Source: Anthopleura xanthogrammica
Taxonomy: Eukaryota > Cnidaria > Anthozoa > Actiniaria > Actiniidae
Assembly (NCBI GenBank): GCA_964019055.1
Contig: OZ025217.1
Span: 5,879,557 to 5,943,556, forward strand
Length of the DNA: 64,000 bases
Reading direction: 5' to 3'
A program made the position numbers and the translations under genes. Shown in pieces: positions 8,401-17,400 of the stretch (the stretch's first letter is position 1; every line of letters begins with the position of its first letter). The notes beneath the pieces are model-generated. The model was not told the origin of the DNA, searched no databases, and saw nothing but the letters and a program-made list of their open reading frames with translations.

Positions 8401-11400
8401 AAGGTAAGTATATGGTATGGACTGGGCGAAATAAGAATTAGCCACGCCTCAAGACAATAAAAATATCATCATACCGCATGCAGTACTTACTCTTTTGGTA
8501 CAGCTTGTAGGAGTCTCTTAACGTACTTATATTTGTAAGAGGTTTTCCATAGTTCCACTTCCTATCAGTATTTTCACAATAAAAAGAGAATGAGAAATAT
8601 AGACACAAATGAAAATGTAAATAATATTGTCAGTACTTGTTTGGGATGACGGAGAATGCAACAGTTGAAGAACATCATGAATTTACTGTTGCATGCAAAA
8701 TTATGCCCATTGATTTGTCATGTTTCTGGTTTTAGTAGGAATGAAAATACAGAATATTGGGAAACGCTACAGATATAACAACAATACATACAAAGTATCT
8801 CACTTACATAGCTTTGCTTCTTTGTAGCCCTGAATCGGCGGGCGAAGTTAATCAGACCTTTAACCACGACTACGAAGTATGTACAAACGAGAACAATGAA
8901 GCATAAGAACACTGAGAGTGAAAAGGCAAAGTTATCTCCTGGATATACCTAAGAAAACAATTCAGATAGGAAAAACAAATAAATAACGTGGAGAAATGCG
9001 GGATCGATATCCACGCTTTCCTGGTGCCCTTCAAGATTTCTAACATCGGGTTTCATCATGCCTACCCAAATTTTTTTCATACATTTCTTTGTAAAGGCAG
9101 TCAACTTCCATATCTTTGGTGCTACTCAATAAAACCAATTCTAACTTTCCAATTTTACTAATTTTAGTATGCTCTTTTAGTAGTATGTGGGGCCTATGGA
9201 TAGACGCCTCATTAAATTCAATAACCATGGAAACCAGAGCAAAGGGAGGGGAGGGGAGGGGAGAGAAGGGAAAAGAAGGGAAAGGGGACAGACAGAACAC
9301 CAGCACATGCGCGGGGCAAACCCAAAGAGGAAGTGACGTCACCACATGCGCGCGCAGGTTTTTAAAAAATGAATTGCCGCACCAAGAAAATTCGCGTACA
9401 TGCAGGCAAAATATAAATAGATTATGGGAGACATGCAGACTGGCACGCAAGTCAGAAAGTGACGTCACCACATGCGCGCGCAGGTTTTCGAAAGAATGAA
9501 TAGCGATGCGCGGACTTTACATCACAAGATAACACCTCCCTCCCCCCCCCATCGTGAGTCGGACAAACAAACCATATTGATGGAGAGGAATGTATGGAGA
9601 TGTTGAGTGTTCGCTCAAAAAACTTGTTTTGGGCTGAAAATGATCGAAGTTTTTGATAGAAGTCGGGAGCTGACCCAGAAAATCACATTTATGAGCGAAC
9701 AACGGTTTATTCGTAAACGAGACTGAAAACATTATGTCACGTAAGGCAACCTATATTCCAATGAAACACACCTCTGTTTTTGTCCCTTTTGTCTCTCTTG
9801 TCCCTTTTGTCCCTCGAAATTTCGATAAAAGTCCTAGTTTTTAATTTTAAATTTCATTTTTTTCAACATCTTTGAGTTATATCATGAGTCAACGCGTTTG
9901 TAAAAGTTGCCCAGTACCAAATTGTGGCTCAAAATATCTTGTCAAACTTTCCAACCATCTAGCCCAAGTTCACGAGTTTTCTCCCGAACAAAGAAAACCT
10001 TTTTTACAAGAAGCTAAACTTTTAAAGTAACAGAAACTGAGTGGAATGAGCTTTATAGATTTAAGACATCTCAACTCCCAAGCGTTTTAGAAGACCTATA
10101 AAAGAAAGCGCTTTAAAATTTCTGTTTAGTTATCTTTGAGTCTTAGATCTATCCACGTCTCCAGCATGGGTTGTTTTCCACCGCCATATAAAATTGGATT
10201 CGAACGTTTATTCAATCGCATGCGTTGCATCTTGGCCTGCTGTGGAGGGACGATTGTAGTCAAAAACTCAGACATTTGCGATGGAAAAAGTACTCAACCA
10301 GATCTACTACAATCTTCGAAGCGCAGGAAGTTTTTCGGGTGTGGATGCTGTTTTCCGTGCCGCAAGAGAAAAGGGGTACAAGAAGATCAGTCGTAAACAA
10401 GTCAGAGACTGGTTAAAGAGACAAGAAGTATACACTTTACATAAACCTGCTCGTCGAAGATTTACTACCAATAGAGTGATTGTTCCTGGAATAGACGCCC
10501 AGTTTCAAGCTGATTTGGTGGATTTGAGTTCCTTGAGTAAATACAACAATGGATACAAGTACCTGCTGACATGCATCGATATCCTTAGCAAGTATGCCTG
10601 GGCTATTCCTCTAAAGACGAAGTCTGGGAAAGACATACTGGATGGCCTAGTTAGGATCTTCAAGTCTGGAAGGATTCCCAAGACGTTTCAGACCGACAAA
10701 GGAACAGAGTTTCTTAATCGCCTGGTTCAAAACTATTTCAAGAAAAATGATGTCCACTTCTTCGTTACTCATAGTGATAAAAAAGCCTCGGTGATAGAAC
10801 GCTGGAACCGCACATTAAAGACCAAAATGTGGAAATACTTCACTTTTAAGAACACTTGGAGATACATTGACGTGCTTCCAGACCTTCTCGAATCTTATAA
10901 CAATAGCTTTCACCGCAGTATTCAAATGAAACCCGTGGAGGTTAACAAGAAAAATGAATCGGTGGTTTGGCACACATTGTATGGAAAGAATTTCATACAA
11001 CCTATTCGTTACAAATTCCGTGTTGGCGATCAAGTCAGGATCAGTAAGGCTAAAAAGCTATTTGACAAAGGTTATCTACCCAACTGGACTACTGAGATAT
11101 TTGTCGTATCGGAAAGGCTTCCAAGACGACCGCCAGTCTATCGTCTAAAAGACCTACAAGGAGAAGTCTTGGGTGGCGTTTTTTATGAAGAGGAACTACA
11201 AGGCACTCAAAAGGACGATAATGTTTATCAAATAGAACTTATCTTGAAAAAACGAAAAGGAAAAAATCGCTTAGAGTATTTTGTTAAGTGGAAAGGGTAT
11301 CCAGATAAATTTAATTCCTGGGTCCCAGCCAAGGATTTAAAAGATGTGTAACTCTTTACAAATATCAAATAAAGTATTTATTATTCGAAACCCTGTTTTG

Positions 11401-14400
11401 TTTCAGTATAAATACCAATTGCAAATGCTAAAGCGCTCAAAAAAATATTGGCGTCATGGAGAACACACAGTTTTATGTGTGGCTTCCTTCTAACAGCAGT
11501 ATGGATGTATTTCCATCCAACACTCTCACAGAGTTTCGAGTACACCTTCCGCAACCCTTACAGTTAACGGGAGATTGGGAAGTGGCTTTGACAGAGATTC
11601 AGTACCCCCATAGTTGGAATAACGTCCGTGAAAATTTTTGGAATCGATTTTATATCAAAAAGGGGGATTGGATAGATGTGTTTATTGTACCCCAAGGCCA
11701 TTACACTTCATTGAAGAGCATCATCGACAAAATGAACGATTTGGTCAAAGCGACTAAATATAAAGATAAAGTGTGGCTCTCTTATGAAATGCGCAATCGA
11801 AAAGTTACAGTGCATGTGGAGAACCAATATTTTGTAACTTTCTCGGATTTTGGAAAGATGTTGGGGTTTTCTCGAGATGTTATACTTTCACAGACCACTA
11901 CGGCTGAACGAGAGGCAGACTTGGATTTGGGATTCCACAACCTCTACGTCTACTGTGATGTGGTTCAACCACAGGTAGTTGGAGACACCCAAGTACCCCT
12001 GATGCGAATAGTCCCTGTCGAAGGAAAAGATGGCGAACGGGTTAGTAGATCCTTTTTAACCCCACAGTACCTTCCAGTCAGCAGGAAACAGTTAGAGACC
12101 ATCGAAGTGAATATAAGGCGTGATACAGGTGATAAAATCCCATTTGAATCCGGGAGAGTGTTGGTTACGTTGCATTTCAAGAGAACATCTCCGTATTTCG
12201 CTTAACCATGCCACATTCGAACGCTGAGTATTACAGAAATTACTATGTTAACCAGGCCCAACAACGAGGAGGAAGTTTGTCCGCCTTCCACGGAGCACCC
12301 ATGCAGCAAGGATATGGGTTGGGCTCTATGCTTAAGGGTCTCTTTCGTTGGGCCATGCCTCACGTGACCGCTGGGGCTAAATCTCTTGGTCGTCAGGCAC
12401 TAAAAGGAGGTTTAGAGGTGGCTCGAGATGTTATGAGTGGTCAAAATGTAAGCAATTCCTTAAAGACAAGAGCAGGGAAAGTTGGCCAAGCTGTGATGAA
12501 GGACATGGTAGCCCAGAAATCAGATCAAACTGGGGGAGGACTGAAAAAGGCTACAAAAAGAAAGAATCAACGAAAACCTGCCATTTCGCGTCAAGCTAAG
12601 AAGCAGAAAACATCATCAACCAAGAAGCAAGACTTCAACTTTTTCTAATGGCACAATCAAAATTTCACGAATGCAGCAAGTCGGAGCTAGACTTGTTTGC
12701 TGTACCACATGTTCAGACCAACATCGAAAAGGGACAATGGGTCGAATATTTTCCTGTGTCTAACATTACCGACTCAGGCCCTATTGAATTCAGTGTATCA
12801 GGAAGTGGAGAGGAATACACCGATTTGAGACAAGCGTGGATATACGTTAAAGCTAAGGTCACCAAGGCCGATGGGGGCGATTTAGATTCTGCTACCGATA
12901 AAGTTGGACCGGTCAACCTTTTTCTACAATCACTTTTCAGTCAAGTCGATGTCAGCCTGAACGAAAAAGTCATCTCCGATTCCACCAATACCAATCCTTA
13001 TCGTGCTATGATCAGCACTTTATTGACTTATGGTTCTGATGCTAAAAAATCTCAACTCTCTGCGGAACTGTTTTACAAAGATATAGCTGGAAAGATGGAT
13101 CTGGCGGACCCACTCGCTACTGGCTACAATAAAGGCCTCAATACCCGATACAAGTTTATCAAAGACAGTTCTACAGTGGAGTTGATAGGACCTTTACATT
13201 CAGATTTGTTTTATCAGGATCGCCTACTGCTGAATGGTGTCACCATGCGCATACGATTGAATCGAAGCAAGAATGCCTTTTGTCTCTTGTCTGCTGTTGG
13301 CGGAGCGGATTACAAGGTGGTTATTTCACACGCCAGTCTGTTTGTTCGAAAAGTGAAGGTGACGTCAGACACGTTCCTTGGTCACGCAGCAGCCCTACAG
13401 CATTCGCCAGCCCTCTATCCCATACGAAGGATAGAGTGTAAAGTCCTTTCCATTCCCAGCGGTAACATGTCCTTCACCCCAGATGACGTATTTTTAGGAC
13501 AAATCCCCAAACGAATTGTCTTAGGTCTGGTTGAAAACGCCGCCTTCAATGGAACCTATAACAAGAACCCATTCAATTTTCAACATTTTAACGCCACACA
13601 GGTTGGAATTTATGTCAATGGAGAGGCTCAACCGATCAAGGCACTACAGTTAAACTTTGAAAAAGAACAACATCTTATGGGGTACATGAGTCTGTTTTCT
13701 GGAACCGGCACACTGTATCACAACCAAGGATGTGAAATCACCAGACAAGATTATTCAAAGGGCTACACACTCTACGCCTTTGACCTAAGTCCAGATCTTT
13801 CATCTGGTCCTCATATTTCCGCCATAAAGCAGGGAAATCTACGTATTGGTTTTCAGTTTGCCGAGGGTCTTCCAAGTACCGTTAACTGCATCATATATGC
13901 TGAGTTTGACTCTATGATTGAAATTGACTCGAACAGAAACGTCACTTACAACTGGAGCGGCTAGGGGGAATGAATACCAGACAGATTGTGGCTGTTTTAA
14001 AAGAGGACCCGTTCACAAGACCACAGTTCCAAGGTGTCTTTCCATCAGATTTATTGCCGAGACAGATACAGCGATACCCAGCAGCCTTTGTGGCTAACGT
14101 CGACCCGACAGGGCAACCTGGCTCACACTGGTGTGCCTTTTACTTTACCAAAGATCGAAAAGGCGAGTTTTTTGATTCATATGGACTCAGACCTCAAGAT
14201 TACACCCAGGCATTTCAAGATTTTTTAAGCAACAGCAGTATAGACTGGACCTACAACCAGAAATGTTTACAAGGCCTAGATTCTAACGTGTGTGGACACT
14301 ACTGTTTGTATTTTTTACTCAATCGATGTAGAAATGTAAGCATGAACGCGATTCTAGCTCGTTTTAGCCATAGTAAGATATTGAACGATAATTTTGTGTA

Positions 14401-17400
14401 TCGATTTATTGTGAAACATTTTAGCCGTACCTATAATTATCCTAAAAAACATATATGCCACCAAACGTCAAGGAAAAAGAATAAACACCATTAAGACAAA
14501 CAAGTTATCTTTTTATTAATTTTCAAGGCAACACTCATACAACACTGGAATCAAGAACGAAACGTTAGCCAACGTCTGGGAGGTTCACTCGGTCTTATAC
14601 TCCTAATAGTTCCTGGCGTCTTATCTGAAGAGGGTAGGGATGGTAGCTCACGGTAAACACTACGTTTGGGACTTGGGCCTCTTGGGGGAGGATTCGTAGG
14701 GGGAGGGGTAGGCAACCAGACACTTATATCTTCTTGGTCACCCATTCGAGATTTGAATTCTCGAAGTGCTCCCCTTCTTCGTTCATTTCTGACCAAATCT
14801 TCAGGAGCGTTCATCTTAGCAAGACCCCTTGCAAAGACTTGCCATCCTATTGGATCTATACCTTTGCGTTCTCTCATGAAATCTCCTATCAAATCAACAA
14901 TATGGGAGCCAGCAAGGGGTCGGTCTTCAAAAACCAGCTGCCCACGACTATCCCATTTCATGATTTCTGGATTTTCCTTTATTTTTTCAATGAGCAACTT
15001 GCCACGGTTTTTGAGAGTTTTGGGCAAGGAACTGACAATGTTGCGTTCGATTTTGTCCTGTACTTCCAGTCTTGGTGCTTCTGGTGCTGGTGGTATCTCC
15101 TCTTCTTCTCGTGGTTCCTTCTGATGTTCTGGAGTAGCTTCAAACTTAATTTTCATGGGTTCATCTTTTCTCTGATTGTAGTAAGTGAGATAGTTTTGAA
15201 GTGTTTGACTGTAGTGTTTGACTTTTTCCTCATCGGATAACTCTGTGCTATTTAATACATCCTCCATTTGATGATCAAGCCTATTTAGTCTTGACGTCAA
15301 GGGTGCTGTTTGGATCTTTTCTCGCTGTCTCAACCTTTCCAAAGCCTGTTCAGGGACCAAAACCATCTTTTTGGTAAAGTTCATTTTACAAAATGTTCTA
15401 TCACACTTAACACTGGAGGTAGCAGAAGAGATAGAAAATTTCCTCCTTTTTGGACCAACACCTTTCTCTTTTGTGACAAAGGGACTTGTTTGTCCACCAA
15501 CGATAACAAAGGCTTTTTAAATTTGTAGAGTTGTTTCTTCTGTCGTGGTGTGACGGGTACAGTGGACTTTAGAATATTAAACACGCATTCACAAATACTC
15601 TTGATTAGGTCGTCGTCAGCAACTTTCAGCAAGGCTTTAGCTTGAATGGGTTTGCTTGTAGATAACACCTTTAGATGATGGAAGTTGTTTCTCACTTGCC
15701 GACTCATGATCAACTAAATTCTTGTACAGGTGGCAAAATGCTTTATAGTTTTTTCACGTAGGCGTGCTGTGTTTCATTAGGAAAAATGTTTGTTCGGAGT
15801 CGAAAGTCTTCCAGAGTATCTGGTTTGAGGTCACAAAGCAGGTATCCGTGGGGCTCGGCTGTGGCGTCGTTGAAGGCTTCTTGCATGTACTTGACATAAC
15901 CAGGAAACATTTGCTTAGCCAAGTGGTTGATTTGACTGCTGTCTCTTGGAGATTTGAAGAGGACCATGTAATGAGCGTTGAGACTGATGTTTCTCAACTC
16001 TTTGCCTTGATGAAAAATATTTTGCAAAATAAAAATACACGAGAGGTTCTTGTGGTGACATCCTTTGGTGAAAATATTCGTTAAGCGTTTGTCATTGCTC
16101 AATTCGTTCATCAAATCGTCAATAATTACGATATTTCGAATAGATGGGTCGATACTCTCTTCCAAATTATGAGGAAGTCCTTCTACGAAATAAATAAATG
16201 GGATGGTAGCCATCATTTCTTCATACGCAGGTTGGTGCATGCCATAGCACCATATGATATTCTGAGGCGTTCCATCGAACATAACATTAGCATTTTCTAA
16301 AAGTCGTTTAACGAACTGAGTTTTTCCGCAGCAGGTGGGTCCAGCGACAATGGCTCCAAAAGGGTGTCCTAGTCTTGTGTCCATCTCAGCATCAAATGAA
16401 CCAAATCATTTATTGCCTGTTTTATAAAACTCTTTCTCGGATGGAATCAGACAGCAGTCAAAATGTTTTCTGGTAAATTCTCGAACGACTTTATATTTTT
16501 GAAGTTTAGCTTCTTGTAAAAAAGGTTTTCTTTGTTCGGGAGAAAACTCGTGAACTTGGGCTAGATGGTTGGAAAGTTTGACAAGATATTTTGAGCCACA
16601 ATTTGGTACTGGGCAACTTTTACAAACGCGTTGACTCATGATATAACTCAAAGATGTTGAAAAAAATGAAATTTAAAATTAAAAACTAGGACTTTTATCG
16701 AAATTTCGAGGGACAAAAGGGACAAGAGAGACAAAAGGGACAAAAACAGAGGTGTGTTTCATTGGAATATAGGTTGCCTTACGTGACATAATGTTTTCAG
16801 TCTCGTTTACGAATAAACCGTTGTTCGCTCATAAATGTGATTTTCTGGGTCAGCTCCCGACTTCTATCAAAAACTTCGATCATTTTCAGCCCAAAACAAG
16901 TTTTTTGAGCGAACACTCAACATCTCCATACATTCCTCTCCATCAATATGGTTTGTTTGTCCGACTCACGATGGGGGGGGGAGGGAGGTGTTATCTTGTG
17001 ATGTAAAGTCCGCGCATCGCTATTCATTCTTTCGAAAACCTGCGCGCGCATGTGGTGACGTCACTTTCTGACTTGCGTGCCAGTCTGCATGTCTCCCATA
17101 ATCTATTTATATTTTGCCTGCATGTACGCGAATTTTCTTGGTGCGGCAATTCATTTTTTAAAAACCTGCGCGCGCATGTGGTGACGTCACTTCCTCTTTG
17201 GGTTTGCCCGGCGCATGTGCTGGTGTTCTGTCTGTCCCCTTTCCCTTCTTTTCCCTTCTCTCCCCTCCCCTCCCCTCTCTTTGCTCTGGTTTCCATGGTT
17301 ATTGAATTTAATGAGGCGTCTATCCATAGGCCCCACATACTACTTCTTTTCAAATATTATATTTCCTTTTTTTGTTGGATTAAAATTTAAAATGTCACGC

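Follow-up and report, generated by a model that had tools for sequence, protein, structure and literature searches.

A multi-copy Polinton lineage of the sea anemone Anthopleura xanthogrammica that lost DNA polymerase B and retained its virion genes: a probable satellite element

How can an integrated, virus-like element that carries its own capsid genes and no DNA polymerase multiply? The question is raised by positions 9179-17344 of a 64,000-nucleotide stretch of Anthopleura xanthogrammica DNA (the window; positions 5,879,557 to 5,943,556 of contig OZ025217.1, assembly GCA_964019055.1), which hold a compact Polinton-like element of 8,166 bp without DNA polymerase B (PolB). Our comparisons establish, at the level of sequence, a family of such insertions, the loss of PolB, the copying of one end onto the other, and constraint on the genes. 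On these grounds the family is probably, although we hold this with some reserve, a deletion-born, capsid-encoding satellite Polinton lineage that uses PolB in trans and provides its own packaging and integration; the trans-acting PolB, the particles, and the reason for capsid retention are what we infer.

The element is flanked by a perfect 6-bp target-site duplication (TSD), has the termini AGTAGT/ACTACT with AGTAGTATGTGGGG read inward from either end, and possesses 843-bp terminal inverted repeats (TIRs) with two differences between left and right. An earlier note on this DNA had described the TSD, the AG/CT ends, and the TIRs, all of which were found again; they correspond to the 6-bp TSD and the TIRs with (AGT)2//(ACT)2 termini expected of Polintons/Mavericks. 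Eight open reading frames (ORFs) of 108-438 aa lie between the TIRs. The reported lack of PolB also held, as none of the long ORFs is a PolB and a relative's C-terminal PolB piece matched either half of the element only at chance level (E about 9); the protein-primed PolB that is part of the Polinton/Maverick definition was thus not found in ORF, Pfam, or PolB-piece searches. The available text of PMC11071296 defines adintoviruses by a PolB with an OTU-like domain plus hexon and integrase, and the window element has no PolB. Judged by its genes and ends, the element is Polinton-derived but falls outside the PolB-based definition. Its features are as follows.

9173-9178: left TSD, TCTTTT, a direct repeat of the right TSD
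9179-10021, plus strand: left TIR, 843 bp, starting AGTAGTATGTGGGG
9884-10030, plus strand: truncated duplicate (48 aa) of the right-end zinc-finger ORF
10166-10396, plus strand: overlapping 76-aa ORF, MGC start, Cys-rich, of equal length in two relatives
10281-11351, plus strand: integrase (INT) with chromodomain, from Pfam
11456-12205, plus strand: penton-like minor capsid gene, assigned from its position and its homology to relatives
12208-12648, plus strand: PW-like gene, by position
12648-13964, plus strand: major capsid protein (MCP), probably of double jelly-roll (DJR) type, with a weak Pfam match and 3,258 homologues
13970-14494, plus strand: maturation protease (PRO), by position and homology to relatives, no Pfam match
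14551-15384, minus strand: PZ-like gene, by position
15381-15707, minus strand: PM-like gene, by position
15743-16384, minus strand: packaging ATPase, Pfam match below cut-off
16406-16639, minus strand: zinc-finger ORF, 77 aa, 5' part within the right TIR
16502-17344, minus strand: right TIR, 843 bp
16729-16730: junction where homology to both PolB-bearing relatives stops (within one base)
17345-17350: right TSD, TCTTTT

The five genes that the earlier note had called intact were supported to different degrees. The integrase was clear, with both the rve core (E 1.1e-10) and the chromodomain (E 4e-12) found in Polinton integrases. The ATPase match to Pox_A32 (E 1.4e-4, 21.8 bits) lay below the cut-off of 22.8 bits, and so did the match of the MCP to a DJR-like profile (E 0.0083), which 6 of 33 aligned MCP family members reached at 0.01. 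The MCP had 3,258 homologues among 8,000 scored candidates, the closest named ones being from Actinostola (68%), Oculina, and Porites. A GPCR exon matched Nematostella at 60%, and both sets of matches suggest an anthozoan-like host. Neither the penton (best Pfam match 0.041, not usable) nor the protease (no Pfam match) could be named except by position and homology, and PDB sequence searches with MCP, penton, and protease were empty at E ≤ 0.1. The names PW, PM, and PZ were assigned by position, following the gene order in the available part of PMC8097293. In IMG/VR, no relative was confirmed by protein or alignment.

We searched the host genome (289.8 Mb, 125 contigs, designated here by C numbers) with the first 622 bp of the TIR and found at least seven insertions, located on C12 (the window), C14, C3, C11, C1, C18, and C6. 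A perfect 6-bp TSD was present at all seven; that on C18 is less telling because the insertion lies in a GACGGA array. Six are full-length and the C6 copy is internally deleted (4.4 kb). The C1 copy contains an 868-bp insert with inverted ends inside INT, and in both C1 and C18 one TIR arm is longer and carries a repeated stretch. No PolB match was found within 15 kb of the ATPases of the seven insertions. Because seven insertions share the same ends and have TSDs of their own, the structure of the window element is not a matter of chance. A chance deletion in a single copy, as would apply had this copy been unique in the way the earlier note allowed for, was rejected since the PolB-less structure is common to all seven. 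Segmental duplication of one insertion was rejected because of the separate TSD at each copy, and an assembly artefact is unlikely with seven sites on seven contigs. Two MCP pieces 90-92% identical to the window MCP were observed at C14:9315515-9316427 and C14:9334825-9335737 and are near-duplicates of each other.

Two PolB-bearing relatives locate the loss. The relative at C4:11276168-11288308 (12,141 bp, 582-bp TIR at 100%, TSD CTCCAT) contains the eight long genes, all in the order of the window element and 51-84% identical at the protein level, with accessory ORFs outside INT and PolB outside the ATPase. The C-terminal 251 aa of its PolB gave no Pfam match on their own and contain a DTDS sequence that we take to be a PolB motif; they have homologues (about 29%) at C9 and C11, in 1,025-aa frames whose PF03175 matches exceed the cut-off. 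The closest relative among those read, C3:4190539-4210574, also has PolB pieces outside the ATPase and is 89% identical in INT, 91% in ATPase, 93% over 268 aa in MCP, 94% in PM, 84% in PZ, 84% in PRO, and 56% (gapped) in the penton; PW was not detected in it. It carries a gypsy-type insertion between INT and penton (Pfam) and a reverse transcriptase-like insertion in PolB (by eye). In such relatives the left genes are followed by INT, penton, PW, MCP, and PRO, with PZ, PM, ATPase, zinc finger, and PolB on the opposite strand. The homology of the compact element to C3 and to C4 stops at the same place, window position 16729, within one base, leaving about 100 bp (C3) or 242 bp (C4) to the PolB stop. 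In C3, ATPase and PolB are separated by the zinc-finger gene. With all eight long genes present in C4, the zinc finger in C3, and the 76-aa ORF in both, nothing replaced PolB, and a substitute replicase among the long genes was rejected. The earlier note had asked whether close relatives would carry PolB between the left TIR and the integrase: the nearest ones read do carry it, but between ATPase and right TIR. It had also raised a shared 843-bp TIR, which these relatives do not have; an inner part of about 230 bp matches one of them well, and the terminal AGTAGTA is common to the family, C3, and C4. A further relative, at C12:8191419, ends inside its ATPase.

At its left end the compact element has about 230 bp of right-end sequence in place of the accessory genes found in the relatives. 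The right TIR includes the 5' part of the zinc-finger gene and the left TIR a truncated 48-aa copy of that gene, so that right-end sequence was duplicated onto the left end. The zinc-finger gene that the earlier note had listed is therefore the 77-aa minus-strand ORF at the right, the left one being this truncated duplicate. In C4 the copying ran in the opposite direction, with a truncated copy of a left gene within the right TIR. Annealing of TIRs during protein-primed strand-displacement replication could permit the copying of ends and is known for adenoviruses; panhandle replication could likewise be the source of the end copying observed here.

Within copies the two TIRs diverge by 0.28% (12 of 4,212 positions in five copies, C1 excluded; 0.65% with C1), whereas between copies the left TIR arms are 2.5% different (15 pairs). 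Most of the divergence thus appears older than the present insertions, having arisen in molecules whose ends were kept matched. The low within-copy value, which marks the insertions as young, and the presence of several PolB-less, TIR-extended forms in one genome are also what would be seen if PolB-less molecules arose often as defective-interfering by-products and integrated as dead ends, their capsid genes intact only through youth. We regard this explanation as rather unlikely, since one shared junction together with a between-copy divergence about nine times that within copies points to a single lineage that went on multiplying, and variants shared by copies are constrained in the virion genes.

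That constraint was assessed in several ways. Pairwise pN/pS was 0.34 over all genes, and by gene it was 0.20 for INT, 0.35 for penton, 0.14 for MCP, 0.36 for PRO, 0.48 for PM, and 0.36 for ATPase. Variants present in at least two copies comprised 19 synonymous and 17 nonsynonymous changes (omega 0.24, p = 3.5e-5), or 15 and 14 in virion and packaging genes only (omega 0.26, p = 3e-4), with changes taken as independent and not polarised on a tree. MCP is open in five of the six full-length copies, and in two of the six all eight long ORFs are free of lesions. These comparisons demonstrate, to the extent that substitution patterns can, that the integrase and virion genes of the family stayed under purifying selection. 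The earlier note had weighed two alternatives, a very young deletion derivative and a distinct lineage without PolB; both are found in succession, an ancestral deletion followed by a constrained, multi-copy lineage. Constraint on INT would also be expected if the family were a transposon that its integrase mobilises and host enzymes copy, with the capsid genes as passengers, a scheme that requires no polymerase of the element. We consider it improbable: MCP is at least as constrained as INT, and ends that match within but not between copies are explained more simply by copying on linear ends.

Potential helpers are present in the same genome. Matches listed in our searches included at least 87 PolB loci, of which 64 have an INT match within 15 kb; 39 of 81 PolB matches listed are open frames of at least 1,000 aa without stops and might act as helpers. 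A PolB match lay within 15 kb at 10 of the 53 ATPase loci listed. These locus shares are rough because distant genes are missed by the queries. For two more PolB families (C18, C19), a search for their ends in the stretches read revealed no TIR.

Other PolB-less forms were also detected. One, from C5:10889200 to about 10900490 with its right end set by the AGTAGT motif, has open INT (52%), MCP (48%), and ATPase (49%) genes and no ORF of 100 aa between right end and ATPase; 925 bp of its TIR was seen, adjoining the ATPase, and a length of about 2.1 kb is estimated. At C9:12.12M and on C100, INT, MCP, and ATPase are open with no PolB match within 15 kb; with the C5 form, this makes three sites of a second PolB-less family. 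The palindromic C9:11086541-11097775 is an inverted duplication centered on a single ATPase, each arm carrying INT and MCP; penton, MCP, PRO, PZ, and PM were recognized by eye in one arm, and there was no PolB match nearby. A 6.5-kb form, C10:6836077-6842613, has 1.66-kb TIRs (99.8-100%) and only a 506-aa zinc-finger/ATPase fusion, a PM-like gene (33% over 75 aa), and a weakly PZ-like gene; INT, capsid, and PolB genes were not seen in it. It was the only one read of 24 ATPase loci (among the 53 listed) that are 51-54% identical and have neither an INT nor a PolB match within 15 kb. At C5:13.05M there was no useful ORF. Such a 6.5-kb form and the few ATPase loci with PolB nearby could be expected of a multipartite virus whose genes are split among integrated elements, INT and the virion set here and PolB or ATPase elsewhere. 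This is highly improbable: an ATPase is present in the window element itself, the end motif is the only TIR sequence common to the forms, and the majority of PolB loci belong to a distant type, so that the queries would miss their ATPase and capsid genes.

For the satellite lineage that we favor, the following course may be proposed. An ancestral deletion removed PolB at the right end, and right-end sequence was duplicated at the left. New copies would be made as linear DNA by the protein-primed PolB of a co-resident or infecting Polinton, with panhandle replication keeping the two ends matched. The element's own ATPase, capsid, and protease would package this DNA and its own integrase would insert it. 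The capsid genes would be retained because the cells entered would offer a polymerase but no usable shell, so that the element has to carry one of its own into them.

Several observations weigh against this proposal. In four of the six full-length copies one or more genes are broken: MCP by a nonsense codon (C14), penton and PM by frameshifts (the C3 copy of the family), PZ by a frameshift alongside an altered PRO start codon (C18), and INT by the insert (C1). PW (1.14) and PZ (0.64) show little or no pairwise constraint. Variants found in single copies are less constrained (16 synonymous, 31 nonsynonymous, omega 0.53, p = 0.03), and the shared and singleton classes are not significantly different (Fisher p = 0.12). 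Neither C3 nor C4 has a match to the outer 615 bp of the TIR. Lastly, a search for the terminal 21 bp outside the family with up to 3 mismatches gave one match above chance, at C8:6537338 (1 mismatch), and no helper; eight matches with 3 mismatches equalled the control level.

The element resembles vertebrate Polintons/Mavericks, as described in the available part of PMC8097293, in its 6-bp TSD, (AGT)2//(ACT)2 ends, TIRs, two facing gene modules, gene order, and combination of INT with capsid, protease, and ATPase genes. It differs in lacking PolB, in having lost the accessory regions, and in its 8.2-kb size, intact vertebrate Mavericks being 12.7-24.6 kb in that text. The C3 and C4 relatives have the same gene order but possess PolB outside the ATPase and other TIRs. 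Virophages and satellite viruses have their own capsid and obtain replication help from another agent. A capsid of its own and borrowed replication are likewise proposed here, but the host is an animal, the relatives are Polintons, and the search with the terminal 21 bp tied no PolB to this TIR. Many protist elements are without detectable polymerase, their replication mode being left open in the accessible text of Bellas et al. 2023 (PMC10120064); these too are integrated and capsid-bearing, whereas here the host is an animal and the lost PolB and its breakpoint are placed against relatives. Neither a family history nor a test of selection appears in that accessible text. In the part of Krupovic et al. 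2014 (PMC4028283) that was available, nine MCP-less elements of 72 Polintons had also lost protease and ATPase. That is the reverse of the present family, which lost the replicase and kept the virion genes. The titles and abstracts found described no replicase-less, capsid-retaining animal Polinton family, with many subscription papers lying beyond the search.

The combination of replicase loss with selected virion genes argues that particles, and not transposition alone, drive the spread of the family, and it gives virophage-like parasitism between integrated DNA viruses a setting in animals. A reason for the existence of polymerase-less integrated elements is suggested too: a polymerase gene at the end can be replaced by terminal copying. 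It is conceivable, with the balance slightly against it, that animal genomes more generally hold satellite-Polinton lineages that spread as particles by way of the PolB of other Polintons, arising repeatedly because panhandle replication can overwrite one end and PolB sits at an end. If so, the genome would comprise tiers of PolB-bearing helpers, capsid-bearing satellites, and capsid-less elements with ATPase only.

Some smaller features were also observed. At C8:6537338 a related TIR end (74% over 138 bp) stands by itself; no element genes were seen in the 1.8 kb examined there. The frame breaks in the PolB genes of the C3 and C4 relatives look by eye to coincide, which suggests introns. Each window TIR has two 40-bp direct repeats, 126 bp apart, that contain TGACGTCA; those of the left TIR are at 9328-9367 and 9454-9493, with counterparts in the right TIR. 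Finally, the 76-aa ORF sits in another frame over the integrase start and has the same length in C3 and C4. The part before INT gave pS 0.455 and pN 0.069 against the C3 relative, and this MGC-start ORF looks like a real additional gene.

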